Shown here: piece by piece, positions 28,863 to 64,000 of the stretch
Layout: each line of letters begins with the position of its first letter
How positions within the stretch are numbered: the first letter of the stretch is position 1
Origin: Mercurialis annua
Lineage: Eukaryota > Streptophyta > Magnoliopsida > Malpighiales > Euphorbiaceae
NCBI RefSeq assembly: GCF_937616625.2
Contig: NC_065572.1
Span: 250,501-314,500, forward strand
DNA length: 64,000 bases
Reading direction: 5' to 3'
Made by a program: the position numbers and the translations under genes
Notes under the pieces: model-generated
What the model was told of the DNA's origin: nothing
What the model saw: the letters and a program-made list of their open reading frames with translations, nothing else
The model's database searches: none

Positions 28863-29521
28863 TATTAGAAATATTGGTGGGAGTAATTAATTATAAATTG
28901 GTGAGAATGTAATAATTCACCCACATGTTTATGAGAGTGTTTAGGTTCAACCATGACCTAATAACTAGAACTAGTTAATAGGTGGTTGAACCTTTACTCT
29001 TATAAACTCATTTATATTTGTTCTTCTAAGCAATGTGGGATTATCTTTAACACTCCCCCTCAAGTGCAACCGGGACTGGACATCCGGTTATCACTTGAAA
29101 TTAACTCCCCCTGAAACTGAAATTTTTGATTTAACAAGCAGCGGCAACACCGGACCGGGCCGCTGGGAATGAACATCCAGACGGACAACCGACAAATTAA
29201 GAATCCGGGCCAGACCCACTGAAATTTTTGATTTAATACGCAGCGGCAATACCGGACCGGGCCGCTGGGACTGGACATCCAGACGGACAACCGGCAAATT
29301 AAGAACCCGAGCCAGACCCGCTTTGATACCATATTAGAAATATTGGTGGGAGTAATTAATTATAAATTGGTGAGAATGTAATAATTCACCCACATGCTTA
29401 TGAGAGTGTTTAGGTTCAACCAAGACCTAATAACTAGAACTAGTTAATAGGTGGTTGAACCTTTACACTTATAAACTCATTTATATTTATTCTTCTAAGC
29501 AATGTGAGATTATCATTAACA
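28863..29521 (-). mobile_element. TRIM retrotransposon, 659 bp
   Basis: Two 190-bp direct repeats (28863-29052 and 29332-29521) bound a 279-bp centre with no protein. On the minus strand the right repeat is followed by a tRNA-Met primer site TGGTATCAAAG (29321-29331), and the left one is preceded by a purine tract GAGGGGGAG, so the element runs on the minus strand. On that strand the repeats begin TGTTAA and end AATA, not the usual CA. The centre holds two copies of a 102-bp unit (from 29116 and 29218; each with GCAGCGGCAA and GGACCGGGCCGCTGGGA). Each LTR has a hairpin GGTTCAACC...GGTTGAACC. No 5-base duplication is clear. Confidence 0.75.
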
Positions 29522-29549
29522 TACTCCTCATGATTAGTCATAAATTGTA

Positions 29550-39521: not shown

Positions 39522-39600
39522 TTAAATTGTGGGTTAATAATATGTTTATCTTCTTTTCATTAATTATTTCTAGTTTTAGCCCCTAAAATCAGGTTTTTCT

Positions 39601-39622
39601 GATTGGGAAAATTCTCCCAATC
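39601..39622. repeat. Palindrome near the left end of the outer MULE
   Basis: GATTGGGAAAATTCTCCCAATC can form a hairpin 70 bases from the element end. It is the only clear one at this end. Confidence 0.55.
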
Positions 39623-41798
39623 CCAATCATTTGAATTTTTTAACCCAATCATTGATTTTTGTTTAAATTTTTCTAATTATTTAAAAAAAGTTATGGATAA
39701 AAAAATTTTATGGGTTAAAAATTTTACATCTTAATTGTTCAATTTTTTGAATTAAAAACGTTTGAATAAATTAATTGTTTTACATTCTATAAAAATAAAT
39801 TTATAAAATATTACAAGACAATTATATTAACAAATATGCAAATATAATATGTACTTCATAACAATAACATATTTAATAAAAAAAATATTACAAATAAAAA
39901 AAATATTACTACAGCAGATAATGTTCAAAGTACAAATAAAATTACCGAGGGGTCCTATCGTCATATCTGCTAGTCACCGGGAGGTTCGAGCGCAAGTTGT
40001 TTCTTTTACGGTTCGCCCGACGGCCTGTACTGATGGTGAGGTAACGTCGATTTGGGCGACCATCACCATCTCCCCCTCCTGCATCGTCGTCGTCCTCGTC
40101 CCCGTCGTCACCCTGCTGGTCCTCGGGAATGGTTGTACTCGTCGTGGCTGGTGGCGGGGTGACAAACTCTTCTTGTTGACGGAACATCATAGCCTCCATG
40201 CTGTCTAGGCCTAACCAACTACTACCGTATGACAGAAAGTATGTGGTCCCAGGTGTATCTGGAAGTCCCTGTGAAGCTGGAAAGTCCTGTGTACCCTGCG
40301 TAGGCTGATCCCACTGAACCTGAAAAGGAGCCACCGTTGGCTGTACATAAACAGGCGGCGGTGGAACAAAAGGTGAAGAAGGTCCTGGTGGCACTGGATA
40401 TAAACATGATCCCTGAAAATAGTGATGTGCCGAATCCCCGTAAAACTGGCCAGATGAAGAAGGACCCGATGAAAAGGGAGGCGGTACAGAGCTGGACCCA
40501 GCGTAATAGTAGTGTCCCCTAAAAGGATGAAAAACCACTGGGGGAGGCATATGATCGGTCGAACGCTGAGGTGGTGCAGGGGGATGACGCCGCTCTCGTC
40601 GTCGATGTCGCAGCGTAGTCGGATCTATCGGTGCGTCAGGTATGACTGATAGTCGATACGGTGGTATAGAAGGCTCGATAGGGGGGCGATGTAACATCAC
40701 GGCAGTCCTCTCTAGTGTCTCTCTGTGTGCTGGCTGCAAACCGCCGAAGCTCAGTGTCAACAGGAGCATCCCTACGTACACGCTCCACAAAATCGGCCTG
40801 TAAATAAAGATATAATACGTTAAAAAAAGTAAGACAGTAACCCGAAATTTGAAATTGATAAATTATTTAAAAAAACATATTATTTAAGAAAATACCTGTG
40901 CTCCGAGCTCAGCGCCCTGTCGTGTGATCCAGCGACGCGTGATATATCGAAACCAATCCATATACTCAGAATGGTAATGCGGTGGATCCCAAAGGGGCTG
41001 TCTTAAAATAACATACGGGAGTCTATCGTCCCACACACGAATGTAGTAAGAGTGTGTCTGGATCCAAGATGAGTTGCTCTTCAAGGTAAGGGTGTGTAGT
41101 GAGTGATCCTGAAGTGAGACGTCTAGAATACCCTGTTGCAATCTGAACTGCTGCAGAACTCTGTCTGCCTGGTGCCACTCCACAATATGAAAATAGATCA
41201 GTGGAATTCTGGCTCGCCAAAAAGCGCGCCCATCCAAACAATACTCTGGGAGAGTGTCCAGCATATCCTCAGTGTACGGCTGCCAGATAAACTGCATTTA
41301 TAAAATATAAGCTATTTAGTATTAAAATATTCTCATAATAAACTATTTAAAATACGAGGAAAAAAAACGAAATATAATTTCTTACATCTTCGTAGCGAGA
41401 CGTGTCAAGCCGAACACGGATGTCAGGTAGCGAGTGTCGACCCGAATGGCTGGCGTTTCTCCGGCCTCCCCATCTGTTATTCAAGAACAGCAACACGTTA
41501 ACAGTCACATTTTATGAAATAGAATGAAACTAACAAGTATTAAACAATAGAATAAAACTAACAGATATTAAAACACACCTGTCGCCCAATGGTAGATGTG
41601 GTGAAATAGTGGGATCGGCTAGAGCGGGAGCAATAACTCTAAGCCGGTCCAATGCCCACAGCTGCAGTATCCACAACGCTCCGCCCATGATGTGGCGATT
41701 CTGAGACCGCAACGAACATAGGCAAAGCTCGTGATATAAGTAAGCCAGTGTCGCCGATCCCCAGCTGTAGGTCCGAACTGCCGCTGGGTTTTTGATAT

Positions 41799-42162
41799 TT
41801 GGGTGCCTCAAAGGCACCCAAAATTCCAGATCAGTGCCTCTTTCGGAATTAATTCCGAAAGAGTGCCTGGTCCCACCTGTTCCGTATTCTAGGAATGCGG
41901 AACAGATGGGGTTCCGCATTTCTAGAATGCGGAACAGGTTAAGCAGCTCATTAACCTCGTTAATTAGCTGCTTAAGCACGTTCCGCATTTCTAGAATGCG
42001 GAACAGGTTAAGCAGCTCATTAACCTCGTTAATTAGCTGCTTAAGCACGTTCCGCATTCTGGGAATGCGGAACGTGCTTCTCCCCAATGATTAGGGAGAC
42101 AGTTTTGTCTCCCCAATCATTGGGGCTGCAATGATTGGGCATTTTAGTGCCCAATCATTGCT
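41799..42162. repeat. Palindrome array at the left end of the inner MULE
   Basis: At least eight consecutive inverted repeats: TTGGGTGCCT/AGGCACCCAA (41799-41821), a perfect 26-base palindrome with GGAATTAATTCC in the centre (41838-41863), TTCCGCATT-CTAGAATGCGGAA at about 41880, 41912, 41981 and 42050, GTTAAGCAGCT/AGCTGCTTAA, GGGGAGAC-type and CAATGATTGGGC/GCCCAATCATTG (about 42080-42162). Bases 41912-42049 are two copies of a 69-bp direct repeat. Little sequence is left unpaired. Confidence 0.9.
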
Positions 42163-43233
42163 GAATTTTAATTTAAAAATAAATAAATATTATTTTAATT
42201 ATTTTAATAAACACTATAAACTAAAAACAATTTAAAATAATTTTATCAAACGATATATTAAGAAACGATTTAAATGCTTGTTTGATTTAACTACTGATTT
42301 TAACAAACGCTTATAAATAAATAAAAATCTTAACAGACGATTTAAATATTTGTTTTATTTAACTAATGATTTGAACAGACACTTATAAAAAAAATAACAA
42401 TTTTAACAAACGATTATAATATACAGAATAGAGTAAACATACAACATCTACTAAAATACAAAAATCGATAAATGAACAAAAATATGAAATCTAATCTTGA
42501 TATCTACGAGTCCTCGGTCTCTGTATCCTCAAACCGTGAGTCTCCCGTCGGTGCCGCGAGCTGTCGGTAATCGAGTAAAACTGTCTGGGTACCAGAGGGC
42601 CCTCGCTGTCGTCGTCCTCGTCTTGAGCTGAAAGCTCAACGTCTGCTGCTGGTGGTGCAGTACCGGTCCCCTCCTGTGTGGGCGGTAGGAGTCTAAAAGA
42701 CGGAGGTATGATATCCGGTCGTGATAAAAGCTCCTCGTACGCCTCTGAACCGATCTCCGGACCAAATAACCAGGACTCTGACAGTGTAAAATGTAGCTGT
42801 GATGGATCCTGAGCCTGGTGAGAAGAAGATGGTCGCGAATGTGACGTCGACGGCTGATCATCCGGAGGCAGCGTGGGACGGTAACACTGATCGAAAGAAG
42901 TGAGCTGCTGATCATCTGTAGATAGCGCTGGACGGTAATACTGATCTAATGCAGCAAACGGCGGTGGTGTGGCCTGCCGAAACTGAGACGCCGGTGGTGT
43001 GGCCTGCTGGAACTGAGACGGCAGCGTGCCCAGAGGAGTCGTATATGCTGTCTGTCCGTAGGACGGCTCAAAAAACGGCATCGACGAAGGCGGGACCTGA
43101 TACGATGATACCTGGGGTCCTTGAAACACAAAGTAGAAAATGCAACATTTAGATTATATATTTAAATACGAGTTAAAAAAGCAATAAAATAATTAATAAA
43201 TGACATGAAACCTGTGGGAAAGAGGTCTGAGGC

Positions 43234-44734
43234 TGATAGGAGTAGAAATACTCCTCCTTTTAGGTGTGGTTTTGACTCGATAATTGCATATTTTGATCAG
43301 TCTTATTGGTGTTTTATTGTCTTATTATTATTTCGAGCGTTTCAGGTGAAATATGCAATTATGGCGAGAATCAGGGCATTTTTGGTGAAACTTAGAAGTC
43401 AAGGATTAAAGAGGACACGAGAGCATAGTGGAAGGGCCAAGAATGAAGTTTTTCCAAGGCAGAATTGACAAGTATGCGAACGCAAGGGTAGTGTGCGAGC
43501 TCTTCACGAGCTGATTCTTGAGTTACAGGAGCTGATGGAAAGAAAAGGGAAAAAGAAATTGGCCAAGGCAAGGGGTGTGCGTTCGCACACCCCATGAAGG
43601 AAAGGGAGTGTGCGTTCGCACACTCCCAAGAAAAAGAAGAGTGTGCGTTCGCACACTCCCTTATGTGCGAACGCACACTACGCGCAGGATTGGTTTTAAT
43701 CGGACAAAAATGCCCCTGTTCGTCAGCAATTTCTAAACAAGTTTCGAGGGTATTTCTGGGATTTCATCACCGCTCATCCTAACTACATCAGCAATATTGG
43801 GAGCCGTATAAATAGGAGACTTATTCATTGTAATGGGGTTCGCTTAATTTTTAATTAAAAACATAAACCCTAGATTAGAGTTTTATTATCAGTCGATTAT
43901 TGAATTCATCGTTTCTTCATTATTTTGTTACCGATTATCATTAGTTTATTGTCGAACAAGGTACGATTATTATCAATTTCATATTCAGTATTTTATTCAA
44001 TCTTAGCATGAATTCTTTAATGATTGTTTTTAGTATTTTTATTATTATGTGTAGCTAAACCCATCGTTGGGGATTATTAATCAAATTATGTCTGTTTAGT
44101 TAAATCGGAATTATGGGTTTTTGTTCTTGATATGTTCTTGATTATTGTACTTAATGCCTAGCCTGAACTGATCACTTAGTCTTTGCCAATTGTTCTAATT
44201 TTAGCTCGAGAGAGTAAAATTGGAATAGACCAACATAGTTAAGAACGTAGGAGTTAATTGTGCGAGAGTGAATTAACAAATACGTGTTCTTAGGATTCAC
44301 TTCATAATCATTCAATTAATCAGTAATTAGGTTAATCATTGTGCGAGAGTGAGTAATTAACCTATTATTCATTAGTTTTATGTTTTTGCCTGCAATTGCT
44401 CGAGAGAGAATTTAAGGTGCTTCCGATTAGTCCGAACCATATCAGAACAATATAATTCATAACCCAAATTAAATAAACAGCATAACAAAGATTAATAATC
44501 CCTGCTTTTCTCATTATTGTTAAAACACCGTTTGAATTACAGCTTTAGTTACTTTAAATTACAATTGTCAATATCTGTCTTTTAATTACAAAACAACCAA
44601 TATTTGTCTTTTCGGCTATTCAAATCGAGTCTTTCAACTGGTTGTCTTTAGAACTTTCCTTGTGGGTACGATATCCGGACTTCACAGTCTGTATTACAAG
44701 TTGGCATACGTACGCTTGCGTATTTTAACCAACA
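43234..44734 (+). repeat. 5' LTR of the Athila-type element
   Basis: Starts TGATAGGAGTA, ends TTAACCAACA, 1501 bp. A TATA box TATAAATAG lies at about 43807-43815, about 570 bases in. Four GC-rich palindromes with a GTGTGCG/CGCACAC core (43572-43593, 43604-43627, 43640-43657, 43664-43677) lie upstream of it in U3. Confidence 0.85.
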
Positions 44735-44740
44735 AGTTTT

Positions 44741-44758
44741 TGGCGCCGTTGCCGGGGA
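44741..44758 (+). promoter_or_regulatory. Primer-binding site, tRNA-Asp type
   Basis: TGGCGCCGTTGCCGGGGA, the Athila-clade primer site, six bases after the LTR end. Confidence 0.85.
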
Positions 44759-44873
44759 AAGTTTTTCTTTAACAACTAAGTTGGGATTGCTTGGCTTGTT
44801 TTAGTCTTTATTTTTCTTGTTTTACGCGTGTGGTTTGTTGATTTTGTTGTTTCAGGTACCCTTCTCTTAGTGT

Positions 44874-47800
44874 ATGCATAATACACGACGCAAAGGACTA
44901 CCGTTAGAACCGTTTCAACAAGACCTCACTACCTTTGAGCGAAGTGTCAGAAAAGCAACACACTCAACTCAAAGGAATCTCAACATGGAGAACGAAAACG
45001 ATGCTCCTCCTGGATTCAACAATGCGGGTGATAATCGAGTGATCCCGCAGAATCAAAATCAGCAGAATCCGCAGAATGCTCAAGGACAGAATAATGAAGG
45101 GCCTCGAGTGAAAACACTGATGGAAATATTTCAGCCAAATGTGGGAAGCAACACCCATGGCTATTTTGCACATCCTGTGCCGACTACCCATTATGAGATC
45201 AAGACGAGTGTCATTCAGCTGTTGAAGGATAACTGCCAGTTCTATGGGCTGCCTAGGGAAGATCCTAACGCACATCTTGCAAACTTCTTGGAAGTATGTA
45301 GCACATTCAAGATGAACAACATGACTGACGACGAGGTATGGCTTCGCCTGTTCCCATTTTCTCTGAGGGATAAGGCAAAACAATGGCTTCACGCTCTACC
45401 TAGCGCAGGCATTAATACTTGGTCCGATCTGGCGAAAGCGTTCTTGCACAAGTATTTCTCCATGGCAAAGACTGCAAAGCTGACGAGGGATATTATGCTC
45501 TATCAGCAACTTGATGGGGAATCAGTTCATGAAGCGTGGGAGCGCTATAAGGAGATGCAGAGGCAAGTTCCGCATCATAACATCACTCGGGAGAATCTGA
45601 TACAAACCTTTTACAATGGAGCAACTGAACTGGGGAGAAGCACGATTGACGCAGGCGCAGGAGGGTCTCTGATGAGAAAAACGGCGGATGAAGCATTCGA
45701 TCTGTTAGATGAGATGGCAGTAAATGGCTGTTTTTGGCCATCTGAAAGGGCGAAGGCACCTGCGCAGAGAGGAGTTATGTCAGTTACTGCTGATTCTGCA
45801 ATGGAGGCTTTAAAATCGAAGACTGCAGCATTGCAAAATCAAGTGGATTTTCTTACACGGCAGGCTGCAGGAGTTAATATTAACAGTGTAGCTGCCATTC
45901 AGAGTAACTGCGAGGTATGTGGGGAGCATGGTCATATGTCGAATGAATGTTCTGTATGGGGTCAGCCTAACAATGAACAAGTTAATTTTGTGGGAGGGCA
46001 AAGACAGGGCAATGATCCATACGCTTCAACTTACAACCCAGGATGGAGGAATCACCCAAATTTCTCATGGAAGGACAATGGGGGTAATGCCAACAATCAG
46101 GCAGGTCCGAGCTTTCAGGGCGGACAGAGGCCACAACACAATCAGGGCAACTACCAGAATCAAGGGAACTTTCAGAATCAAGGGAATTTCCAACATCAGA
46201 ACAACCGACCGCAGCATCCTCCTGGCTTCCAACAAAGAGAGCAAGGCGAGTCTCTCCACAGCAAGTTTGATAAATTGATGGAGATGATGATGAAGAAGGA
46301 TGCCGAGACGCAGCAAACATTTAAAAATCATGCTGCTACAATTCATAACCTTGAGGTGCAGAATCAGCAGATGGCTAAAGCACTGCAAAGCAGAAGTCAG
46401 GGGGGTTTACCATCCACTACTGAGGAAAACCCCAGAGAGCATCTCAAGGCTATTGAGTTGAGAAGTGGGAAAGCATTGGATGATCCATATGCAGGACGTG
46501 CTACAGTTGAGGCGGAAAAGGAACAGTGTGAGGGTGGCGAGCCCGAAAAGGTAGTTGCTAAACCACCTCCACCACCTCCTTTTGTGCCAAAGGTGCCATT
46601 CCCACACAGAGTGAAGAAGCCGCAGGACACTTGGAAGTTTCACAAATTTCTTGAAACTTTCAAGAAGCTACAGATTAACATCAGTCTGGCAGACGCATTG
46701 AGAGAGATGCCGCACTATGCAAAGTTTCTCAAGGAAATCATCACCAACAAGCGGAGTTGGGATGCAGAGGGACCAGTACCGATGACAGAAAACTGCAGCT
46801 CAATCATACTGAGCAGTCTACCGACCAAGCTGAAGGATCCAGGGAGTTTCACTATCCCTTGTACTATCGGTAACATGCAATCTGTCAATTGCCTTTGCGA
46901 TTTAGGTGCTAGTATTAATTTGATGCCCTTATCCCTTTTTCGTAGTATGTTTGGTGATCAACAGGTACAGGCCACGCCGATGATGTTGCAGCTAGCGGAT
47001 CACTCTCTGAAAAAGCCACATGGGATTGTGGAGGATGTCTTAGTGAAGGTCAACAAATTCATATTCCCTGTGGATTTTGTTGTCCTTGACTACGCAGCGG
47101 ACAAGGAGTGCCCGATGATATTGGGGCGACCATTCATGAACACTGGCAGAGCTCTTATCGATGTTCATGATGGAAAGCTGACTCTGCGAATTGGGGATGA
47201 GAGCGTTGAGTTTGACATGAGAAAGATCACACGCCATCCCAATTCTGGAGGTGAATGCATGCGGGTAGACATGGTGGATGAGTTAGTGGAAGAACAACTG
47301 GTAGAAAACAATGCCATCCTGCAGTCTATGCCGAATGAAAGGGAGGAGTACTTAGAGGAACCAGTCCTCGAACCACTGTTGAAAAGCAAGCACATCACTC
47401 CTCCCTCCTCAGAGAAGCCACCAAAAGTGGAGCTCAAGACTTTGCCTGCACACTTGCGATATGCTTTCTTGGGAGCTGATGGCACTTTGCCTATTATCAT
47501 CAGCAACAAGCTCACCAAGAAGCAAGAGCAGAGGGTCATTGATGTAGTCAAGGGACGTATCTTGGCTATTGGGTGGCAGATTTCAGATATCAGAGGGATC
47601 AGCCCTTCAGTAGTGATGCATCGGATTCATTTAGAGGATGAGTCTAAGGCATCTGCGCAGAGACAGAGACGGCTGAACCCTAACATGAAGGAGGTGGTTC
47701 ACAAGGAGATTGTGAAGCTACTTGATGCGGGCATCATCTATCCCATTTCAGATAGTTCATGGGTGAGCCCAATTCAGTGTGTGCCTAAGAAAGGCGGGAT

Positions 47801-49508
47801 GACAGTCGTAGAGAACGACAAGGGAGAACAGATCTCTACTCGCACAGTTACTGGGTGGCGAGTGTGCATTGACTACAGGAAGCTGAATGCCGAGACTAGG
47901 AAGGATCACTTCCCACTTCCTTTTATTGATCAGATGCTAGAGCGAGTGGCAGGACATGCGTTTTACTGTTTTCTGGATGGTTACTCTGGGTACAATCAGA
48001 TCATTATCTTCCCAGAGGACCAAGAGAAGACTACCTTTACTTGTCCATATGGCACTTTCGCCTACCGCCGCATGCCGTTCGGTCTTTGCAATGCGCCTGC
48101 TACGTTTCAGAGGTGCATGACGTCGATCTTCAATGACATGATCGAAGACATCATGGAAGTGTTCATGGACGACTTTTCAGTCTTTGGAGACTCCTTTGAG
48201 CGTTGTCTTCGAAATTTAGATCGAGTCCTGCAGAGATGCGAAGACACGAATCTGGTGCTGAACTGGGAAAAATGCCACTTCATGGTGGAAGAGGGCATTG
48301 TTTTGGGGCACAAGATATCTAGAGAAGGTATTGAGGTTGACAGAGCAAAGACAGAGGTGATTGAGAAGCTTCCACCTCCAGTCACAGTGAAGGGAGTCCG
48401 TGCCTTTCTCGGGCACGCAGGTTTTTATCGCAGATTCATAAAGGACTTTTCTTCCATAGCGCGTCCTTTGACTAACCTACTTGTCAAGGATGCGCCTTTT
48501 TTGTTTACTGATGCTTGTTTAGCTTCTTTTCTCAGGTTAAAGGAAGCATTGGTTACTGCCCCAGTCATATCTAGTCCGGATTGGGATCTGCCTTTTGAGA
48601 TCATGTGCGATGCAAGCGATCAGGCGTTGGGAAGCATACTGGGGCAGAGGAAGGACAAGAAGCTTCATGTCGTCTATTATGCGAGTCGTACTCTAACAGG
48701 CGCGCAGCTGAACTACACTACCACGGAGAAGGAGATGCTAGCTGTAGTGTTTTCACTGGACAAATTTAGGCAGTATCTACTTGGCTCAAAGGTTATCATT
48801 TATACTGATCATGCTGCGCTGCGATACCTTTTTGCCAAGCAAGATGCCAAGCCTAGATTGATTCGGTGGGTATTGCTTTTACAAGAGTTTGACTTGGAGA
48901 TCAGAGACAAGAAAGGGACAGAGAATGTGGTGGCAGATCACTTGTCACGGTTAGAGGTGCCCGAGCCGGTGATAGAAGGTGAAGTCATCAATGAACGGTT
49001 TCCTGATGAGGCACTTATGCTCATTAAGGAGACGATGAATCCATGGTATGCAGACTTCGCCAACTATCTCTCAGCTGACATTATGCCCCCTGACATGAGC
49101 AGTCACCAGCGCAAGAAATTTCTCTCTGATGTTAAGCGTTATCTGTGGGATGAGCCGTATCTATTCCGAGTTTGTGCAGATGAGATGATCCGGAGATGTG
49201 TCGCAGAGGAAGAAATGTTGGCTATTATGACTCAGTGCCATTCTTCAGATTATGGGGGTCACTATGCTTCAGGAAGGACAGCAGCACGGGTATTGGAAAG
49301 TGGCTTTTACTGGCCTACATTGTATAGAGATGTGAGAGACTTTGTGCAGCACTGTGACAGATGCCAGCGGACAGGCAATATTTCTAGGCGCGATGAGATG
49401 CCTCTCTCTTCCATTCAGGCCACGAAGGCTGTGATGCTGAAGTGGAGGTGGAACCGTAGTACTGAGTCGGCCCATAGTACTCCCCCCGTCTGTCTGAAGT
49501 GGCTGTAG
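44874..49508 (+). CDS. Athila gag-pol polyprotein, broken in integrase
   Basis: One open frame of 1544 codons from ATG 44874. Gag core at about residues 110-260, a CCHC knuckle CEVCGEHGHMSNEC at about 345, a Pro-rich linker, protease with LCDLGASINLMPLSLF at about 674 (DLG for the usual DTG/DSG), reverse transcriptase from about 914 with the FMDD catalytic motif at about 1095, RNase H from about 1240 (MCDASDQALGSIL), and the integrase zinc finger (H-H-C-C, ending HCDRCQRTGN) at about 1453-1495. The DDE catalytic core is missing. The last 30 or so codons are antisense PMD sequence read through the break. No stop or frameshift occurs in over 4.5 kb, so the insertion is young, but the copy cannot integrate by itself. 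Confidence 0.88.
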   Translation: MHNTRRKGLPLEPFQQDLTTFERSVRKATHSTQRNLNMENENDAPPGFNNAGDNRVIPQNQNQQNPQNAQGQNNEGPRVKTLMEIFQPNVGSNTHGYFAHPVPTTHYEIKTSVIQLLKDNCQFYGLPREDPNAHLANFLEVCSTFKMNNMTDDEVWLRLFPFSLRDKAKQWLHALPSAGINTWSDLAKAFLHKYFSMAKTAKLTRDIMLYQQLDGESVHEAWERYKEMQRQVPHHNITRENLIQTFYNGATELGRSTIDAGAGGSLMRKTADEAFDLLDEMAVNGCFWPSERAKAPAQRGVMSVTADSAMEALKSKTAALQNQVDFLTRQAAGVNINSVAAIQSNCEVCGEHGHMSNECSVWGQPNNEQVNFVGGQRQGNDPYASTYNPGWRNHPNFSWKDNGGNANNQAGPSFQGGQRPQHNQGNYQNQGNFQNQGNFQHQNNRPQHPPGFQQREQGESLHSKFDKLMEMMMKKDAETQQTFKNHAATIHNLEVQNQQMAKALQSRSQGGLPSTTEENPREHLKAIELRSGKALDDPYAGRATVEAEKEQCEGGEPEKVVAKPPPPPPFVPKVPFPHRVKKPQDTWKFHKFLETFKKLQINISLADALREMPHYAKFLKEIITNKRSWDAEGPVPMTENCSSIILSSLPTKLKDPGSFTIPCTIGNMQSVNCLCDLGASINLMPLSLFRSMFGDQQVQATPMMLQLADHSLKKPHGIVEDVLVKVNKFIFPVDFVVLDYAADKECPMILGRPFMNTGRALIDVHDGKLTLRIGDESVEFDMRKITRHPNSGGECMRVDMVDELVEEQLVENNAILQSMPNEREEYLEEPVLEPLLKSKHITPPSSEKPPKVELKTLPAHLRYAFLGADGTLPIIISNKLTKKQEQRVIDVVKGRILAIGWQISDIRGISPSVVMHRIHLEDESKASAQRQRRLNPNMKEVVHKEIVKLLDAGIIYPISDSSWVSPIQCVPKKGGMTVVENDKGEQISTRTVTGWRVCIDYRKLNAETRKDHFPLPFIDQMLERVAGHAFYCFLDGYSGYNQIIIFPEDQEKTTFTCPYGTFAYRRMPFGLCNAPATFQRCMTSIFNDMIEDIMEVFMDDFSVFGDSFERCLRNLDRVLQRCEDTNLVLNWEKCHFMVEEGIVLGHKISREGIEVDRAKTEVIEKLPPPVTVKGVRAFLGHAGFYRRFIKDFSSIARPLTNLLVKDAPFLFTDACLASFLRLKEALVTAPVISSPDWDLPFEIMCDASDQALGSILGQRKDKKLHVVYYASRTLTGAQLNYTTTEKEMLAVVFSLDKFRQYLLGSKVIIYTDHAALRYLFAKQDAKPRLIRWVLLLQEFDLEIRDKKGTENVVADHLSRLEVPEPVIEGEVINERFPDEALMLIKETMNPWYADFANYLSADIMPPDMSSHQRKKFLSDVKRYLWDEPYLFRVCADEMIRRCVAEEEMLAIMTQCHSSDYGGHYASGRTAARVLESGFYWPTLYRDVRDFVQHCDRCQRTGNISRRDEMPLSSIQATKAVMLKWRWNRSTESAHSTPPVCLKWL

Positions 49509-51228
49509 GATCGAAGTGGTAGTAGACCGGTTGGGGGATAGGGTCGTCCGGGCGCTCGCGAGGCTGGGGGGCTCTAGGCTGCCGTCTACGCGCTCCCCTG
49601 ATGTGAGCCAGATCGATGTTCAGGGGAGGAAGAGGAGGTAGTACGTAAGACGGAACTGCTGGCTCTGGTGGGGGGCAGTGTGACGTCACGGCGCTCCTCT
49701 CCGTAAGCTAATTGGGAACTGCGTGCAGCAGTCCCAATCCTAGACGCACGCGCCTCTCTCTGAAGGGCGATCATCTCGAAAGTGTCGCGCTGTTTACATC
49801 AAACAAACAAATTGTCAGTGTATACAATAATAAGAGAAATTTAATAATAAAATAAATACATATATTCTGTCCGGCCGTTGCGCCCTCATGGGTAATCCAA
49901 CGCCGGCTGCGGCTCCGAAGCCACTCGATATACGCTGAATGGTAGTGAGGTGGACGCTGGAGCTGGTAGCCCTGAACAACGTAAGCTGCTCTGTTGTTCC
50001 AAATCTGGATGTAATCTGAGAGCAGTTCATCAAAGTTGTAGTTCCCCTGATACTGGATGTTATGAAGGAGCCGATCTTGCATAGCAGGTAGGGGAATAGG
50101 CTGTTGTAAGCCGAACTGCTGCAGAACTCTATCCGGCTGGTGCCACTCGACGATGTAATAGTAGATCAGTGGCGCTCGGGCACGCCAAATATGTTGCCCT
50201 GTCAGGTAGATCTGTGGGATGGACTGAAGAACGTCGTCGGAGTATGGCTGCCAAATGATCTGTGTACGTAAATTAAAAAGTTAGTTAACATTTGTCCTTA
50301 CATTAGTTCAATTGAAAAAAATTTAAAACTTACATCGTCGTAACGCAGCCCGTCCAATAGAAGTCTGAAGTGACAAACTGAGTATCTGGGAACTCGTCAT
50401 GTCCCCCGCTCCCGCTGTCTGAGACCCCCCCATCTGCACACATTATTAAATCATATTACAAGTGTAGCGAAAAACCAAAATAAAGATAACTTCATACGAA
50501 AAGTGTACATGTCACCCAAAGGTAACCCCCCGTGACACCAAAGTCGGCCAAACGGGGCCGCAATGGCCTAAGACGCTCGTAAACCAGAGCTGTAGAATCC
50601 ACACAGAGCCCCCGATGTTTTGTCTGTTCGCCGAAGCAGAGGCGCAGAGGCATATCTCGTGGTACAAATAGGCCAGAACCGCCGAACCCCAGCTGATATC
50701 GCGCAAACGGCCTAAATCCGCCAGATGCAGAAGAATCCTCACCCCATTCCTGATGCGAGAATCTATCTCGTGAAATGGAGTAAGTCTGGCGCTCGATCGT
50801 GACCCTAGGGAAGACTCGCCGTCCTGAAAAGGTAAAAATTATATAAAAATTAGGACTCAGATCTTGGAAAAAGCAAATATAAAGTATTGTGTTAATAACA
50901 AAACAAGATGTTACCTGGTTATCCCAAATAACCGAGGATCTGTGATCGTCCTGCATGGTCAGAACGTCTGGCACCAGCGGCCCATGAGTGTAGTAGTCCC
51001 GGCGTTTAGCCATAGCTGAAATAACAAATACATACAACAGTTATTAAAAATTACAACACACATTCATAAGAATAATAAATTAGTAAATGAGATTCATAAG
51101 AATTACTAAAATGAGATTCATAAGAATAATACATTACTAAAGTAACATTCATTAAAACAATAACAGTCATAACAAATACAATAACAGTCATAACTACTTC
51201 CTCTCTATTACACGACAACAGTCATAAT

Positions 51229-53718
51229 CTACTCATCTCGGATAGGATTGGTACAATCATTTGCATTGTGACCCCTGTTACAACATCTACTACACCAGTT
51301 AGGACTCTGATCTTCCCTGTATTCTTGATCCATCTCGTTCCTGAAGCGCTGGTTAACTGGAAGCCCCCTTTTTCGACGCTATTCAGGGTTTGGAATGAAG
51401 TGGGGTTCGCCTACGCCGGACTTCCTCCAGTATGTGCGGGCACATAACACTTTAAATGGAGTGTTCCAGCATTGAATAGCAAACTTGGTATGATAATGCC
51501 AATGCACAAACTCAAGAGGGTTCAGCTTCTCCTTCGCACAAACGGCCATAGCATGAGAGCAGAGCAACTTAAATTGCTGGAATTTACCGCACGTGCATTT
51601 CTTATTCTGAAGGTTTACCGTATGGGTATTTCCTCCTCTCCCATTGGAGTGGTTCTTCCTAGTTTCCACTTTGCATGTCATCGTAGAACGGTCGTACGTC
51701 TGGCTGGTATGGAAACGGGTCTTCTCCCCCCTCTGCTTCAGTAGTTGGATGCATATTGGAGTGTAGTGAACGTTTGTGGCAATCAACTCCTCATACGTCT
51801 TCCAACGCGCGTCGAACATTTTAACCATCCGATCAAAAATTGCCTCAAGCATTGATGTGATCGGAAGCCCCCTTATATTCTTCAGCGCCGCGTTGACAGA
51901 CTCAGCATAGTTAGTTGTCATCACATTGTGGCGTTGCCCTTTTTTGTCATACACCCTTGTCCACTTTTCTTTAGGCCGCTTTTCTTTCTTAGTCAGTCAT
52001 GCATACGCTTCTGGTCTTCTAATCTTGATCGCGTCCATGTAGCGAGTATACTTCTTCTTCTGATATGCTCGGCCTAAAACACAAACCATAATATTAGCGC
52101 ATAATAATAACCTATGTTGTCAACATAATCACTCGTAAAAAATCATTACCTGCTTTCTCCGCCAGCTTTTTCAAAACCTTGTTCCTAAACTTGGTCTGAA
52201 AATTACTACAGAAATGTCTGATGCAAAACTTGTGAGCGACTTCGGCCCATTCAGGACGCTTCAGAACCAAAAATATTCCAGCGTGCCGATCAAATATAAT
52301 GGCCACCTTCCTTTCACAAATCACTTGCTCACGCAAATGTTCAAAAAAGTACTCATAACTGGCAGTACTTTCAGATTCAACAAGTGCAAATGCCAGTGGC
52401 ATGATGTGACTGTTCCCATCGATTGTCGACGCGGTCAACAAGATCATTTTGTATTTGCCATACAAATGAGTACCGTCGACGAACAAAACTGACTTGCAAA
52501 AACAAAACCCATCAATGGTCGGTTTGAAAGTCCAGCGCCCACATATCACAAGTTCAATAATATTAGAATTATTACTTGAAGCAACTCGTTCTATAATAAA
52601 TTAGAGTTATTACGTATACCTTCTGCATGCCAGAAAGATCCAGGGCTGACATGCATCATCTCGTTCATGAACTTGTGAACCATAGAAAATGATTCATACC
52701 AGCCACCGTAAACATCAGCTATTGCCTTTTCCTTTGCATTCCAGGTTCGTTTATACGGAGGCCTAACTCCATATTGTTGCCAAATTCCAGCTTTGAGGGT
52801 ATCAATCCGTATGTCACGTTGCAGCTTTACTTGACCCTTGATATAGTCTGCGATCGGACCAGACCCAAAATTCCGATGGTTTGGATCAGGTAACAGCTGA
52901 TTGCACGTGTGCGGGCCAATATATTTTGTCAACGTCCACGTCTGAGTTGATTGCAGAAGTGTAGCGTGCAACCACCATTTGCAGACAGGGTTGTGCCTAC
53001 AAACCAACACTATTGTGGAGTTGGTAGTCCAGCGACCCTTGTACTCCCTTCCCACCCCGACCGAATAAGAAGTCGCACAAGTTCGGACGGCATCGCGATT
53101 TGGGAAGACCATCCCTACTCGGAATTCCATCTCAGGATCTCACATAATCTTTTCATCAGCCTCCGGGGCAACGTCAAAGTCGCAAAGATCCGCCCTTCTT
53201 ACATGCTCAGGAAGTTGCGACTGATATTGTGAATCTGCTCCTAAGTCTTCCTCGACATCCTCTTCGTTGTTGTCATAGAAATCCTCTTCTTCCTCTTCTT
53301 CCTCTTCATCACTACCCCTCTCAGACCCGCTGGAATCACCTAAAACCAACTAGTCCAATAAAGTCTCGTTGCGAACCGCAGCCTCGTATTCCACGTACAT
53401 TTCCAAAATATCCAGTTGCGGATACTGCACGACCTCGTTCAAAATTCCAAACACATGCTCGTTATTCTCCACAGAAAACAACGAGTACGAGCGTATCGCA
53501 CCCCCAGCTATTCTTGGAAGCCGGAAGTAGATTTTTGAAATTTCTACTTCCCCGTCGGTAGAAACTGCTCTTCTACAAATATTTTATAATTCTTCAAAAC
53601 TCATTCTCTCGCTAAGCGCCATATTAACCGGACGACCCCCATGATATTCTATTCCACACAGAGAACTCACAATACGGCCATCACACCATATCAACAAAGA
53701 TATATTTGGACTCGTCAT
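51229..53718 (-). pseudogene. Inner MULE transposase (MuDR-type), five in-frame stops
   Basis: Exons 52620-53718, 52150-52590 and 51229-52073 total 795 codons in one unbroken frame. Parts in order: N-terminal region (MTSPNISLLIWCDGRI), acidic run (about 130-160), MuDR DNA-binding domain (FRVGMVFPNRDAVRTCAT), MULE core with first Asp in LFVDGTHLYGKYK and second in IIFDRHAGI, a Glu in PEAYA as likely third, TTNYAESVNAALKNIRGLP, a SWIM finger CTCGKFQQFKLLCSHAMAVC and a C-terminal CCHC knuckle CSRCCNRGHNANDC. Stops: TAA 53584-53586, TAG 53350-53352, TGA 53140-53142, TGA 51997-51999 and TAG 51379-51381. No frameshift is present. Its PMD partner starts 215 bases downstream. Confidence 0.88.
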
Positions 53719-54334
53719 TTCTAATTAATAAACAGCAAATATATCACTGTTACATTTAAAATGCGAATCTTAAATTTATAGCATGAACATATCAATTGCA
53801 ATTACTGTTACTTTATTTCTAATATTTTTTTTAAATAAAAATAAATTAAACATATTTTAATATAATTGTATGAAATTTCTAATTATACATTTCCTTATTA
53901 CATGAAATTTCTAATTATACATGTTCTAATAATATCCTAATATAATTATATTAAACATATCCTAATTTTTTTATATTATACATGTATTTCTAAATTACAA
54001 TTAAAGTCTAATATTTTGCTATATTAAAATTAATTTTATAACAATTTTACATATTATTAAATTTCTAATATTTATTAACACTAAAATTATTTAAAGCAAT
54101 AATTAAAAAAAGTACACGTACTAACCTCTTGTAGTCCTTTAAAATAATTAGTATCGAATAAAAAATATAACATTTCACGAAGAGATCCGTTTAGCTCCGA
54201 AATATAACTTCATCCAACTTTTTTCTGAAATATAACTTCTTCAAAATATAACGCCTCGAAACTATTTTTTTTTCTGCCCTATGCTCTCATTTTTTACTCC
54301 CTTTAAATTATATTGGAATTTTTTTTAATTAAGT
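53719..54334. other. AT-rich subterminal region of the inner MULE
   Basis: Upstream of the transposase; repeated ACATGAAATTTCTAATTATAC (about 53860-53930). Promoter elements not resolved. Confidence 0.4.
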
Positions 54335-54623
54335 AAAAAGGGTTTGAACCCTTTTTATAGGCAACCGTGGGGAGCTGGTCTCCCAGCGGTTTTAAATGCG
54401 TTCCGCATTTCTTGAATGCGGAACGCATTTAATTTACCGTTGGGAGACCAGCTCCCAACGGTAATATTGCAATGTTCCGTATTTCTAGAATGCGGAACCC
54501 CACATGTTCCGTATTTCTAGAATGCGGAACATGTGGGTCCTGACACTCTTTTGGAATTAATTCCAAAAGAGGCACATGACTGGAATTTTGGGTGCCTATG
54601 AGGCACCCAAATATCAAAAACCC
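54335..54623. repeat. Palindrome array at the right end of the inner MULE
   Basis: AAAAAGGGTT/AACCCTTTTT (54335-54356); a nested stem in which GGGAGCTGGTCTCCCAGCGGT and ACCGTTGGGAGACCAGCTCC flank a TTCCGCATT/AATGCGGAA palindrome (about 54366-54463); two more TTCCGTATTTCTAGAATGCGGAA (about 54475 and 54506); CTCTTTTGGAATT/AATTCCAAAAGAG; TTGGGTGCCT/AGGCACCCAA. The outermost part matches the left array; the inner part differs. Confidence 0.88.
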
Positions 54624-55693
54624 ACTGCCGCTAGATCCTCTAAAAGTGGAAGAATCCGCAACGAAGTCTTTCCACTAGCGAGGTCAGTGAAGCACAACCC
54701 TGTGATAGCGAGCAACAGCTACGCCCGTGTATACCGACAAACAAGCTCGTCAGGGGCCTGGTCTGCTAAGCGACTAATGTGGGGGAAACTCTGTAGGATT
54801 CAAGATGTCCGGACTGAGGAATTTGCCCTTTTAACAGGATATGTGCTCGCGGGAATCTCCAAAACCCTCTCTGCCACTGCAGCCCAATCATGTACAATAC
54901 CCCCTGTAACTGCATGACCGTCTACTAGTAGTCCGGTCTGAACGGTCACGTCCTCTAGGGTAACCGTGCACTCTCCGCCGGGTAAGTGAAAAGTGTGGGT
55001 CTCCGGTCTCCACCTCTCCACTAGGGCTGTGATCAGCTGCATGTCAACGCTGTAGTGACGCATAGCAAAACAGCCTGCAAATCCAGTAGGCTGGATCATC
55101 GACCGAATACGCTGGTCCAGCTTAGCGAACGGTAAAACGGAGCTCCTTCTAGTCGTACAACTACTGCGGGACTGAAATCCCTCGTCAGAGCCCTGGAAAA
55201 AATAAACATGGAAAAAATAAACCATTAAGTAAGTTCGAAATTTAAATTAAGTTGCAAACGTAACTATTGAAAAAAAAATATTACCGTGCCATCCCAGACA
55301 TCCTGAGATATGTGATCATGCTGTAAATGTAGGAGCGCCGGTGTTTCGGGGCCCGGCTGCATGTGATCGTGAGCAGCTGCCATGGCTGCAATTTTTTCAA
55401 TATAAATTATTAAATAATTAATTTATAATAATATCAACCAATTAATTTACAAACATGTCAAATAATTAATTTACAAACATATCAAATAATTAATTTATAA
55501 TAATATCAAACAATTAATTTACAAACCTATCAAACAATTAATTTATAATAATATCAAACAATTAATTAAAAATAACTTCACTATAAAAAAAAGGCAACAT
55601 TCCACAAACACAATAGATAACATCATTTTCAATAGAACACAAACGAAATTATACATCCTTAGTACATGATAAATGGAAGCACAAATCCTCACA

Positions 55694-57955
55694 TCACTGA
55701 ATATTCAAAGGACAAAACCTAAGGTTATGGTCATATGTAAGACCTTTTCTACAGTAGTTGCTAGTTGGCCTGTCTCTAAATGTCTGGTCCATTTCATTCC
55801 GACGCCTACTCTCAACCGGCCTGCCCTTCTTTCTCATCCACTGTCTGTTAGGAACAAATGGAATTTCAGTGGAATTGATCCAATACTTTCGATTTCGTAA
55901 GGGTTCAAATGAAACAGAGCTCCACGCTAAGATTCCATACTCGCATTTGTAATACCATGAAATGTAGTCACGGTAGTTCTCTCCGTATTGACTGACTCAG
56001 CATAGTTAGTTGTCACCACAACATGCCGCATTCCAGTCGTGTCGCCGCTCATGCTCCATTTTGTAACGTCAAGGCGGTCAAAATAACTATAACCCTCAGG
56101 TGAATCCGCCTCTATCAATGACATGTACCGAACTCTTTTATACTCTTGGTATGCGCGGCCTACACGTTGATTAAACCGTCAGTATTTTCCCAACAACCAA
56201 AAATTTATTTATTATAATTAATGACAAGAAAATTACCAGCTTTTTCAGCAAATTTTTCGAGATTTTTTTTTTGAAGGCATTGTGAAAGTTGCTCACTAGG
56301 TGTCTAATGCACCACTTGTGGGTATCACCCGCCCACTCAGGCCCCTCCATTGCACTCATAATACCGGAGCCGCGATCAGATACAATGCACACCTTTCGCT
56401 CACCCAAAACATACCTCTTCAACATTCTCATAAAATACCTTCAGGATGCAGCAGTTTCCGACTTCACAATGGCAAAAGCTATCGGCATGATGTGGTTGTT
56501 CCCTTCAATTGCAGATGCAATCAGCAAAGTCATTTTGTATTTTCCATATGTGTGGGTGTCGTCGATGTACACAACAGGCTTGCAATACTGAAAACCCTTC
56601 ACCACTGGCTCGTACGTCCAAAACATATGCTCGAAAGTTCTGAATCCTGGATTGTTTTCAATGGGTGTACTTGTCCATACACCGTTATTCGTAATTATTA
56701 AATCATTACCATTAATATTTTTAAATAGTTGAAATTTTAAAAAATTTACCTGCAGCATGCCACACTGTCCTGGGATTAGCAACAGTGACATTCGTCATAA
56801 AATTGCAAATCTCGCCGAAAGAGTCGTCTCATTCTCCGAACATGTTTACAATGGCCTTTTCCTTGACATACCAAGTTTTTTGTATCCAGGCATAACTCGC
56901 AGACTTTGGAAAATCCCCGCTCGAAGCGTTTTAATCCTTATGTCACGTTGCAGTCTCAATTGCGTGTTGATGTGTTCAGCTATCTGTCGCGCTCTTAAAT
57001 TGCGATGGTCTTGGTTCATTGCATGGCCGCTGCATTGGTGGGGGCCATCATATCTTGTTATCATCCAATCTGCCTCGCCTTTTAGAAGCGACGCATGCAA
57101 CCTCCAATTGCAAGTGTCATTGTTCACACACACACAAGCACTATTGTTTTACTGGTTGTTCGACTACTCTTGTATTCTTTATTAGCTGCAGTATGATAAC
57201 TCGTCGCACATGTCTGGACAGCATACCTCGAACTAAAAACCATCCCCAGTTCAAACTCTTTGCCAGCTTCCCATATTGCATTTTTTTCAGGCCACAGATT
57301 CATATTGACACGCATCTCGTCAACATTCTGATGCGTATACTCATAAGGAAGGCATGACTGAAAATGATCTGCATTTTATTCCGACTCACCACCGACATTA
57401 GCACCATGAGTGCCATCTCCATTCTCACCACCGATGTCATCATCATCATCATCATCATCCTCGTTGTCATCAGCAACAACCCTTCTTCTTCCTCCTCTTC
57501 ATCACTAAAATCATCATCATTGTCAACATCCGCACAGTCCTCTACATCCGCACAGTCCTCTACATCCGCTATTTTAGAATCCCCAAACTGTGCACGTATA
57601 CTTGAGATAGCAGGTTGTACACAATGTAAAATTCAAGTACCCTCATTTGTGGCGTCCGCAAAATATTACGCCACATTGCTTCCATGTGAACATCTGTCTC
57701 TATAGGAAAACCATCATATTTCTGAAATCTTCCACGTTCATCGAACCGGGGCACTCGTAGGTAAATCTTCACTATCTCATCAGTATCGTTCAGCCCAATT
57801 GCCCTTCTAATTACGACTTGTAGTTGTACAAAATTCACTACAATCGTCAACTCAACCAGTTCTGATTTACCAGAGACATAATCAACTCCACCCGGAGTCG
57901 TTAATATTGTACCGTCCCAATAAATTTTTAGGGTTGGCAGCCCATTTATCGTCAT
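55694..57955 (-). pseudogene. Outer MULE transposase (MuDR-type), heavily decayed
   Basis: Starts MTINGLPTLKIYWDGTIL, homologous to the inner transposase, then an acidic Asp run (a frameshift in GAT repeats near 57440), the DNA-binding domain (FELGMVFSSRYAVQTCATSY), a frameshift by GT gain in a (GT)n run near 57125, another in an A run near 56885, and TGA stops at the expected Trp codons near 56828 and 56448. First Asp lies in YIDDTHTYGKYK, second in VSDRGSGI. At about 55980 an internal deletion after TTNYAESVN removes the SWIM finger; the tail SFEPLRNRKYW...RRRNEMDQTF and a knuckle-like CRKGLTYDHNLRFC remains to the stop at 55694. Intron sites match those of the inner gene. Confidence 0.85.
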
Positions 57956-58942
57956 TACTACATTAAAGAACATAATTTTAACTATATTTTTTTAAATTGG
58001 CAATCATAATTTTAACTAACTTAACTACATTTATTTATTTTAAACTTTCAAATTACAATTAAAATTTAACACAAATTGAAAATTAAAATAAACAGGTTAT
58101 TTAGCATTTTTTTACTAGGTCACATTTCAAATAGAGTGACAAATAAATGAAGCATTTTCTTCACAAAGTAACGATTAAAATATTAATAATATTACATTTA
58201 ATATATAATTTTAAAATTTATAGTTTTCAAATTTTGTAGTAAATTTTAAAAAATATTAATAATTCACTTTATTCTCTTATTTAGATTTCTACATCAATAT
58301 TACAGTTTATTAAAATTTCACAAAAATAATAAATATTCAATTTTCAAATTTTAATATAATCTAGTTTACATTTTTCTAAAATTTACACATTAATGTAATT
58401 TATTTTATAATCTAACTATATTATTTCAAAAATCTCACTAAATCTAACTATATTATTTAAAAAATATCACTTAATCTAACTATATTATCTATCTAACAAC
58501 ATTTCAAACATTATTTAAATTTAACTACATTATTTATCTAACAACATTTCAAAAATTATTTTAATCTAACTACATTATTTATCTAACAACATTCCAAATA
58601 TTATTTAAATCTAACTACATTTAATAGTTAAAAATAACATTTTAATAAATTTAAAAACTAACCTGATGTAGTCCTCGTTTATATTTCTGATCGTCCGATA
58701 ATTCCACCAAAAAACAAATATTCCACCATAAAAATCGATTCCGTAAAATCTGCTCCACAATAATTAATTTATGAATAATAGTTGCTGCCCTCCCACAATA
58801 ATTAATTAATCATCCACTACATATTTTTTCCCCAAATCTCTTCCCCTCCCAAAATATTAATAATAGTTGCTGCCCTCCCACAATAGTTGCTGCCCTCCCA
58901 ATATTTTTTACCTATTTTTTTCAATGCTGTGCACTGAAATGA
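57956..58942. other. AT-rich subterminal region of the outer MULE
   Basis: Repeated ATCTAACTACATTATTTATC-like words (58430-58620) and two copies of AATAGTTGCTGCCCTCCCAC (58786, 58863). No gene. Confidence 0.5.
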
Positions 58943-59175
58943 AAGGGGGAATTCGTTCCCCCTTTTACAGTAGTTGTGTCTCGCGGAAGACTTCCGCGAG
59001 CCACAACTACTTAGTCAGAGGGATTTATTCCCTTTGACTGATACAACTCGCGGAAAGCTTCCGCGAGTTGAACCTACGTGGCTCCAGCTGCCTCCAGGTG
59101 GAGCCACGTATGTAAATCGCAGAACACTTCTGCGATTTACTGCAATTCGTAGAAGTGTTCTGCAATCTGTATAGG
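58943..59175. repeat. Palindrome array at the right end of the outer MULE
   Basis: A run of inverted repeats: AGGGGGAA/TTCCCCCT, AGTTGTG..CTCGCGGAAG/CTTCCGCGAG..CACAACT, GTCAGAGGGA/TCCCTTTGAC, CAACTCGCGGAAAGCTTCCG plus its complement, TACGTGGCTCC/GGAGCCACGTA, GTAAATCGCAGAA/TTCTGCGATTTAC and a diverged last one. The words differ from those in the inner arrays. Confidence 0.88.
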
Positions 59176-59514
59176 ACAATTTGAGAAAAATTCTTAATCG
59201 GGGGCTAATGTGAGAATTTTTTTTAATTTTATAGATGAATATGTCACTAACCCTTAAATTGTAGCCTTAATTTGATATAAATTTGATATGATTACTTACA
59301 AAACCAGCTCTGCCTTCAACCACAATATTTACATTTTAGAAATAAACCTACGCAATTAGCAAAGCGGTTACTTCTTATTTAAAGCCTAACTTAAATACCC
59401 ATATATAGCCCAGTACAAAACGAAAAAAGGTCCAAGGAATAATCTAGGGAAAGGCTGTAGGACTTTTTATGCCATCTTTGAGATTATGGGCCGAATTTGG
59501 GCTGGGTTAGAATA

Positions 59515-59726
59515 GAGAAAATTAGGGAAAACACTCTATTTTTTAAAATAATAGTAAATTATACCTCAACAAGTAAAAGATAGAGAAAATACCTCAGCTT
59601 TTTAACACTTTTATTTTTTTATTCTAAAGCCTTTTTTTATTATAATAATACTTATTTCCTATTATTATTTTTACTCTAAGCATTTTATTTTTACTCTCAC
59701 ATATATCTCCCTTTTTTTCCAGATTT

Positions 59727-59774
<48 letters not shown>

Positions 59775-61690
59775 TTTTCTTCTTCTTCTTCGTTTATTTT
59801 TTTCTTCTTCATCACGCGGCCGCCGTTCCTTTCGACGATCCGCCATTGCTCCGCCTTCGTCCCGCCTTCGTTTCGTCTTCACTCCGCCGTTCTTACACAT
59901 TTTAGCAATTTTTTTCTTAACTCGTGGTGATTATTACGATTTATTTTAACTCTCAGATCTAAAAAAATTATTTTTAAATTTTTTTAGTTTAAGATCTGAA
60001 AATCTGCATTAAAAACGATTTTATGATGAAAAAAAATTATTTTCTGCAAAAAAAACGATTTTCTGCAGAAAACAGCGCCTGATTATCATATTGTTATCAC
60101 TATGACGTTATCATATCAATATCATAACACTGCAGAGAAAAACGATTTTCTGTCAAGAAAAATGCTTGATTATCATTTCGGTATCATTAACGTTAGCATA
60201 ACTGTATCATAGCGTTATCATATCAATACCATAATATTATACGATTATGATAATAATATGATAAGGCTATGATATAGTTATGATAAAGTACGTTATGATA
60301 ATATTTTTTGATATTATTATGATAAAGTATATTGTGATAATGTTATTATAATAGTATGATAATTTTATGATAAAAGGTTACGATATAGTTATGACAAAGT
60401 ACGTCATGATAATATTATGATAATATTTTATGATACTGTTATGATAAAGTATATTTTGATAAGGTTATGATAATAGTATGATAATGTTATGATATATAAA
60501 GTACGTCATGATAATATTTTATGATATTGTTATAATAAAGTATATTATGATAACATTGTGATAATATCATGCTAGCGTTATTATAATAGTATGATAAGGT
60601 TATCATAATATTATCATATAATAATCTGCTACATACGGTACTAATAATGACATGATAATAAGATGACAATGCAATATGATAGATTGATAATCACATGATA
60701 AGTGAAACTGTGATAATCATATGATAATGTAATACTGTGATAATCATATGATAATGTGATACTGTGATTTTGTCTAATATTATCCAGCAGTATCATCACA
60801 TTATCATATAATAATTTGCTACATATTGTACTGATAATGACATGATAATAAGATGCCAATGCAATATGATACACTGATAATTACATGCTAAGATGAAGCT
60901 GTGATAATCATATGATAATGTGATACAGTGATAATCATATGATAAAGTGATAATGTGATTTTGTCTTACATTATGCAGCAGTATCATCACATTATCATAT
61001 AATGATCAGTTATATACGATTTTGAATAATGACATGATAATAAGATGACAATGCAATATCAGAAACTGATAATTACATGCTAAGATGAAGCTGTGAAAAT
61101 CATATGATAATGTGATACTGTGATTTTTTATTTAGTTCATATAGTTTTTGAATATGCTATTAATATAATAAAATATTTAAATATTAGCATATATTTTTAA
61201 ATTAAAAAATATTTGATACTGAAATAAATAAAAAGATGATTTTTAATTTATTTAATAATGTGTAATCTGCAATTTTATTAATTTAATAAATGAAGAAAAA
61301 AGAAAAAAGAAAAAGAAATGAATCACAAAAAAGAAATAAATAAAAGGAAGTTTAAACCTGTGAATAATTTGTAATGGGCATAAATAAGGTATGTCACGTC
61401 ATACGAGAGAGAAAAAGAGAGCGAGAGAGAGGAGGGGGGACCACGTGGAGAGAGAAAAAAAGAAAAAAAAAAGAGAAAAGGAGGACCACGTGGAGAGAGA
61501 AAAAGAAAGGGGGACCACGTGGAGAGAGATAGAGAGCATGTGCAATGTGTGAGAGTAAAATTATAAACAATCAAATAAGGAGAGTAAAATCATAAAAATA
61601 TTAAAACAGTGAGGTATTTGTACTAACTTTTCCTTATTGAGGTATAAAGTCCTATTATTTTTATTTTTTAGGTAAATTCCTAAATCTCTC
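59515..61690. mobile_element. Foldback MULE-like element 1, 2176 bp
   Basis: Ends GAGAAAATTAGGGAAAACAC and (reverse-complemented) GAGAGATTTAGGAATTTACC, then shared TACCTCAA(T/C)AAG and ACCTCA words. A perfect 9-base duplication GTTAGAATA is at 59506-59514 and 61691-61699, fitting a Mutator-type transposase. The left arm has a (CT)n tract and a GC-rich stretch (CGCGGCCGCCGTTCC); the centre (about 60065-61130) is an ATGATAAT repeat field. No transposase gene. Confidence 0.82.
60065..61130. repeat. Irregular ATGATAAT/TATCAT repeat field, element 1
   Basis: Short variants of ATGATAATAT, TATCATAT and GTGATAATCATATG alternate for about 1 kb. Longer near-copies of about 200 bp occur at about 60620-60800, 60800-61000 and 61000-61125. 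Confidence 0.85.
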
Positions 61691-61727
61691 GTTAGAATAT
61701 CCACAATGTACTCCCTATTTTTTAAAA

Positions 61728-63924: not shown

Positions 63925-64000
63925 TTTTTAAAACTCTTTATAATAAAATAAAATTACACAATAATTAAAAATGCGGTAACTTTTTAGTCAAGTACCAACT

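Follow-up and report, generated by a model that had tools for sequence, protein, structure and literature searches.

Nested PMD-carrying MULEs in Mercurialis annua and a VANC21-like predicted fold for a plant mobile domain protein

The window, a 64,000-nucleotide stretch of Mercurialis annua DNA, holds three stacked transposons, namely an outer MULE, an inner MULE and a Ty3-type retrotransposon (Table 1). The two MULEs, each with a plant mobile domain (PMD) gene, form a nest that is real, decayed and of an already known kind. On the minus strand of both, the transposase gene comes first and the PMD gene lies behind it. The tRNA and Rfam scans of the 64-kb window gave no matches.

Table 1. Features of the nest, in positions of the window; exon borders of the outer PMD gene are approximate and taken from matches to P0001 and P0029.
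Feature	Position	Strand
Outer target-site duplication TTAAATTGT, left copy	39522-39530	+
Outer MULE, between the TTAAATTGT copies	39531-59253	
Outer left end, short imperfect terminal inverted repeat (16/21)	39531-39551	+
Outer PMD, later exons	about 41472-41386, 41291-40896, 40797-39942	-
Outer PMD, remainder of exon 2	41785 to about 41578, within 39942-41785	-
Inner target-site duplication ACTGCCGCT, left copy	41777-41785	+
Inner MULE, between the ACTGCCGCT copies	41786-54623	
Inner left terminal inverted repeat, about 150 bp	41786-41936	+
69-bp tandem repeat with palindromes, inner left end	41911-42073	+
Inner PMD, C-terminal low-complexity tail, past the retrotransposon	42491-43253	-
Ty3-type retrotransposon inside inner PMD (limits by eye)	43265-49420	+
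Ty3-type element, presumed 5' LTR	about 43265-44734	+
Ty3-type element, presumed primer-binding site	about 44741	+
Ty3-type open frame, stop to stop, extending past the junction	44871-49508	+
Inner PMD, first part	49421-51013	-
Inner transposase pseudogene, three inferred exons, 777 codons	51229-53718	-
Long palindromes (arms 18 and 13), inner right end	54392-54464	+
Inner right terminal inverted repeat	54473-54623	-
Inner target-site duplication ACTGCCGCT, right copy	54624-54632	+
Outer PMD, exon 2, first part	from about 55192, within 54633-55383	-
Outer PMD, exon 1	about 55383-55285, within 54633-55383	-
72-bp/24-bp tandem repeat, between outer transposase and outer PMD	55404-55575	+
Outer transposase pseudogene, pieces in several frames	55712-57955	-
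MULE-domain pieces of outer transposase	within 56171-56794	-
32-bp and 45-bp tandem repeats, upstream of outer transposase	58409-58621	+
Four G+C-richer palindromes, outer right end	58942-59140	+
Outer right end, short imperfect terminal inverted repeat	59233-59253	-
Outer target-site duplication TTAAATTGT, right copy	59254-59262	+

A sequence-only reading of the window had claimed exact 9-base duplications for both MULEs, and these are indeed found, the TTAAATTGT pair outside and the ACTGCCGCT pair inside. ACTGCCGCT occurs at two places only in the window (shuffles give a mean of 0.15, and at least two occurrences in 2 shuffles), and the terminal inverted repeats of the inner element align over about 150 bp at 89%, the outermost 21 bases being identical. 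Among the 25,567 pairs of 9-mer direct repeats lying 2-30 kb apart, the inner pair shares the top score of 21/21, and one further pair reaches 18. The outer pair scores 16 in the same set, equalled by two A/T-rich pairs; its inverted ends match at 16 of 21 bases, which 2 of 200,000 random end pairs equal, and TTAAATTGT alone is common (7 places in the window vs 3.7 expected). Since TTAAATTGT is not rare and a 16/21 match is shared by other pairs, the outer border rests on the duplication, the ends and the gene content jointly. Both elements thus carry the target-site duplication of about 9 bases that is a hallmark of MULEs, together with terminal inverted repeats, which are weak in the outer one.

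According to that reading, the inner MULE splits the second exon of the PMD gene that the outer, related MULE carries. The present analysis agrees: the peptide LPLLED-L, AAV-RTYSWGS rejoins in frame with one copy of the duplication. The rejoined outer PMD peptide aligns with M. annua P0001 gap-free at the insertion point, where P0001 has no insert. The uninterrupted P0001 amounts to an empty site at the protein level, which supports a true target-site duplication of ACTGCCGCT. The nest by itself is ordinary plant-genome history.

The two elements had also been described as complete. Their borders and nesting stand, while the broken genes of both MULEs do not support completeness. In the outer transposase, PF10551 is matched in two pieces (E 1.1e-5 and 0.001), each below the Pfam cut-off alone, and the part corresponding to residues 591-688 of P0121, the SWIM finger region, is without a match, so that SWIM was not recovered there. 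The outer PMD is interrupted in exon 2 by two in-frame stops (54802-54800 and 54721-54719), and PF10536 is recognized in this gene in three pieces (75.8, 60.1 and 43.8 bits vs a cut-off of 34.9). The inner transposase shows 88% identity to P0121, a gene model of 785 aa from M. annua that belongs to a 90% cluster of 23 sequences. This transposase exceeds the Pfam cut-off for PF10551 (E 1.9e-19), has a SWIM zinc finger after the core (E 1.3e-8) and is interrupted by 5 in-frame stops in its 777 codons. In exon 2 of the inner PMD, some 144 codons of the conserved core are missing relative to P0002, with the junction at about 50745, and a frame shift follows WILQLW near 50584; PF10536 is matched in two pieces (35.3 and 61.9 bits, same cut-off). 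At almost the same PMD position (around GHLGVRILP), internal deletions of this MULE subfamily end in P0091, P0129 and the window (about 50745), as if the deletion were recurrent, two of the three cases being known from gene models alone.

The inner PMD is further broken by the Ty3-type retrotransposon, which was absent from the sequence-only reading and also speaks against the completeness of the inner MULE. Its position makes it the most recent of the three layers, and unlike the MULEs that surround it, it has an open frame. Gag, reverse transcriptase, RNase H and the integrase H2C2 zinc finger lie above the Pfam cut-offs, protease and zinc knuckle below them. The frame ends abruptly after the H2C2 zinc finger; the Pfam scan gave no match to an integrase core, and the self-comparison of the window gave no second LTR copy, which suggests that the right side was lost by deletion or through incomplete insertion.

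The proposal that transposase and PMD travel as one unit is strengthened by evidence from outside the window. The homology searches covered the best 120 of 455 matches, the best 120 of 405 and, in a third search, all 16; among the best 120 of 455, the closest PMD relatives are from M. annua, and the closest transposase relatives are likewise. The M. annua models P0091, P0129 and P0130 join a transposase to a PMD in the same order as in the window, and in P0126 the transposase ends in a PMD-like stretch (34% over 131 columns, E 1e-6). These joined models may be deletion derivatives, merged gene models or prediction artefacts; deletion and merging alike imply that both genes are adjacent elsewhere in M. 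annua. The two are also found on one chain in P0131 of Heliosperma pusillum, a caryophyllid. In the window, a stop and then a separate start lie between the transposase and PMD genes. Over six linked cases, the identities of transposase and PMD correlate with r = 0.97 across 12 of the 15 pairs, which are not independent of each other (three were dropped, one side aligning over fewer than 60 residues).

In the tree, the two PMDs of the window join ten M. annua PMD rows in a group with 100/100 support, and the MAIL2 rows form a separate group on a long stem. The outer PMD goes with P0001 and P0029, and P0091 and P0129 accompany the inner one, although several of the rows are short. The tree is unrooted and drawn with a midpoint root; of its 45 rows, 43 were chosen from 255 proteins and two come from the window, and 8 fill less than half of the columns, including the inner window row, whose letter make-up is odd. 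Its references represent PMD-C by MAIL2-type proteins only and are without PMD-A or PMD-B. The simplest reading of these sequences is that one old transposase-PMD association diversified as a unit.

Both genes bear the mark of constraint. Comparison of the inner with the outer lineage gives a pN/pS of 0.317/0.692 for PMD (180 codons) and of 0.370/0.679 for transposase (412 codons), rough values in view of saturation, from the inner and outer window copies only. The total excludes one transposase block (28% identity) by a 30% rule, and bootstrap samples with infinite dS were given a ratio of 0. Because decay after the death of an element raises pN/pS, the constraint on the living elements was probably stronger.

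The predicted structure of a close PMD relative has one clear fold match, VANC21, in a structure bound to its DNA, and the MULE PMD thus appears to have the same shape as VANC21. The sequence identity between the relative and VANC21 is 11%. The Pfam cut-off of DUF1985 was not reached among the 20 proteins listed in detail (best 18.3 vs 35.1 bits); the top row by E-value stands at 2.5e-5, and the profile gave no match to P0001-P0004. Neither phmmer with P0001 nor hmmsearch with the PMD alignment A2 listed VANC21 among PDB sequences, and hhalign of the PMD alignments A3 and A2 against the VANC21 piece gave E 0.43 and 0.1. The proposed link is therefore one of predicted fold, plus a weak DUF1985 trend. 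For the host MAIL2-type protein P0228 (alignment A3), the predicted structure has a pLDDT of 49, too low for a fold comparison. Among the papers listed by the literature search, none was seen to claim a common fold or descent for PMD and VANC or DUF1985, and none described the VANC21 crystal structure; such a structure paper may exist outside the sources searched and may discuss PMD. The fold match provides a concrete, testable hypothesis that PMDs bind DNA. If this is true, the presence of PMD in transposons would be easier to understand, and a host silencing pathway would share a protein superfamily with a transposon anti-silencing system.

The non-coding DNA of the MULEs contains motifs that might serve as targets. 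AATGCGGAAC occurs 11 times in that of the inner element, at both ends, and is absent from the remaining 44 kb of the window, while CTCGCGGA occurs 4 times in that of the outer element and nowhere outside the nest, the inverted ends making some sites count twice. Many of these sites fall within palindromes near the element ends. We regard both motifs as candidates only for PMD targets. The end palindromes exceed simple mononucleotide shuffles and could serve transposition only. Tandem repeats, which were considered as a sign of VANC-like targets, are present in both MULEs; as they are also frequent elsewhere in the window, they were not counted as evidence. Beside the outer MULE, at 59511-63933, lie about 4.4 kb in which long inverted repeats, imperfect at 71-74%, occur together with numerous TGATAAT-type tandem repeats; this may be a further foldback or MULE-like element. 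Two other repeats lie farther away, at 10196-10939 and 28863-29530, namely a minisatellite (about 106/204 bp) and a direct repeat of 200 bp (95.5%).

According to PMC5418596, the first description of PMD came with a rice MULE, a 2006 paper cited there gave the domain its name, and PMD-MULE fusions are known from several grasses and Amborella; host PMD-C genes are argued to have been captured twice, and an anti-silencing role is speculated upon. The elements described here likewise carry MULE transposase and PMD together (in the window, in four M. annua models and in P0131). They differ from these fusion proteins of grasses and Amborella in belonging to a eudicot and in having seemingly two adjacent genes on the same strand, transposase first. 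A 2021 review calls PMD proteins enigmatic with a domain of unknown function, and mentions VANC21 next to TE-encoded PMDs when it names strategies of counter-silencing (PMC8616336), so that the functional parallel is already printed as a suggestion. The host proteins MAIN and MAIL1 share PF10536 with the MULE PMDs and, in contrast to the role considered here, promote silencing (PMC5418596). The unit itself is thus already in print, and what is added is a eudicot family whose genes look unfused, together with a structural ground for the anti-silencing speculation.

Two other systems are worth comparing. VANDAL21 (Hiun), the element of VANC21, is set apart by the low identity and the DUF1985 score given above; VANDALs are not known to have long terminal inverted repeats, unlike the inner MULE with its about 150 bp. 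Maize MuDR is, like the window MULEs, a two-gene autonomous MULE with 9-base duplications, in which the gene orientation differs from that seen here. Its second gene, mudrB, is not known to be a PMD gene.

The sequence itself shows the following course of events. A MULE whose transposase gene precedes a PMD gene inserted at the host site TTAAATTGT, after which a second MULE, from a related subfamily and with both genes arranged in the same way on the same strand, inserted at ACTGCCGCT in the second exon of the outer PMD. The Ty3-type retrotransposon later landed in the inner PMD gene. As a proposed mode of action, the transposase would cut and paste the whole unit, as is standard for MULEs, and the PMD protein would act as a VANC-like DNA-binding anti-silencing factor for repeated non-coding motifs of its own subfamily, its binding keeping those copies expressed. 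We give this scheme as a whole an even chance. The broader proposition, that PMD and VANC form one superfamily of transposon-borne, sequence-specific DNA binders, in which a eudicot MULE PMD reactivates its own subfamily through its own subterminal motif, as VANC does in VANDALs, with MAIN and MAIL1 as relatives of reversed sign, is tentative and somewhat short of that.

We have also considered other roles for the PMD. It could mimic MAIN and MAIL1 without binding its own DNA and block the MAIN-MAIL1-PP7L silencing complex. This would fit the conservation of PMD core residues in host and MULE proteins alike, as well as the reports that MAIN and MAIL1 silence TEs together with PP7L and the suggestion of counter-silencing by TE-encoded PMDs (PMC5418596, PMC8616336 and PMC7156037). 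However, the sole clear fold match is a DNA-bound, DNA-binding anti-silencer, the ten MAIL2-type rows share no more than 29-30% identity with P0001, and the MAIL2 rows stand separate and long-stemmed in the tree, which makes such mimicry unlikely. A help in transposition, by end binding or in integration and with no silencing role, would have a parallel in mudrB of maize MuDR, which acts as a second-gene transposition helper. The linkage of PMD to transposase, their similar constraint and the strong palindromes in the element ends are consistent with it; against it stands the fold match to an anti-silencing protein, and we consider it rather improbable.

Since MULEs capture gene pieces (PMC5418596) and the window PMDs are broken in both elements, the PMD might instead be a captured host gene with no function for the MULE. 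This is disfavoured, and in our judgment very improbable: when the two lineages are compared, pN reaches only about half the value of pS, PMD diverges jointly with the transposase, and the MULE PMDs group apart from MAIL2 in the unrooted tree. That the assembly wrongly joined two elements is hardly credible, although the nest is known here from assembled sequence alone, in view of the exact 9-base duplications at the borders of both elements and the gap-free rejoining of the outer PMD frame. A VANC-like role remains our preferred reading of the PMD.

Proteins of several plants named serine/threonine-protein phosphatase 7 long form homolog are, among the matches listed, PMD proteins. This name may be misleading, since the Mercurialis proteins that bear it fall with the PMDs of MULEs in the tree.
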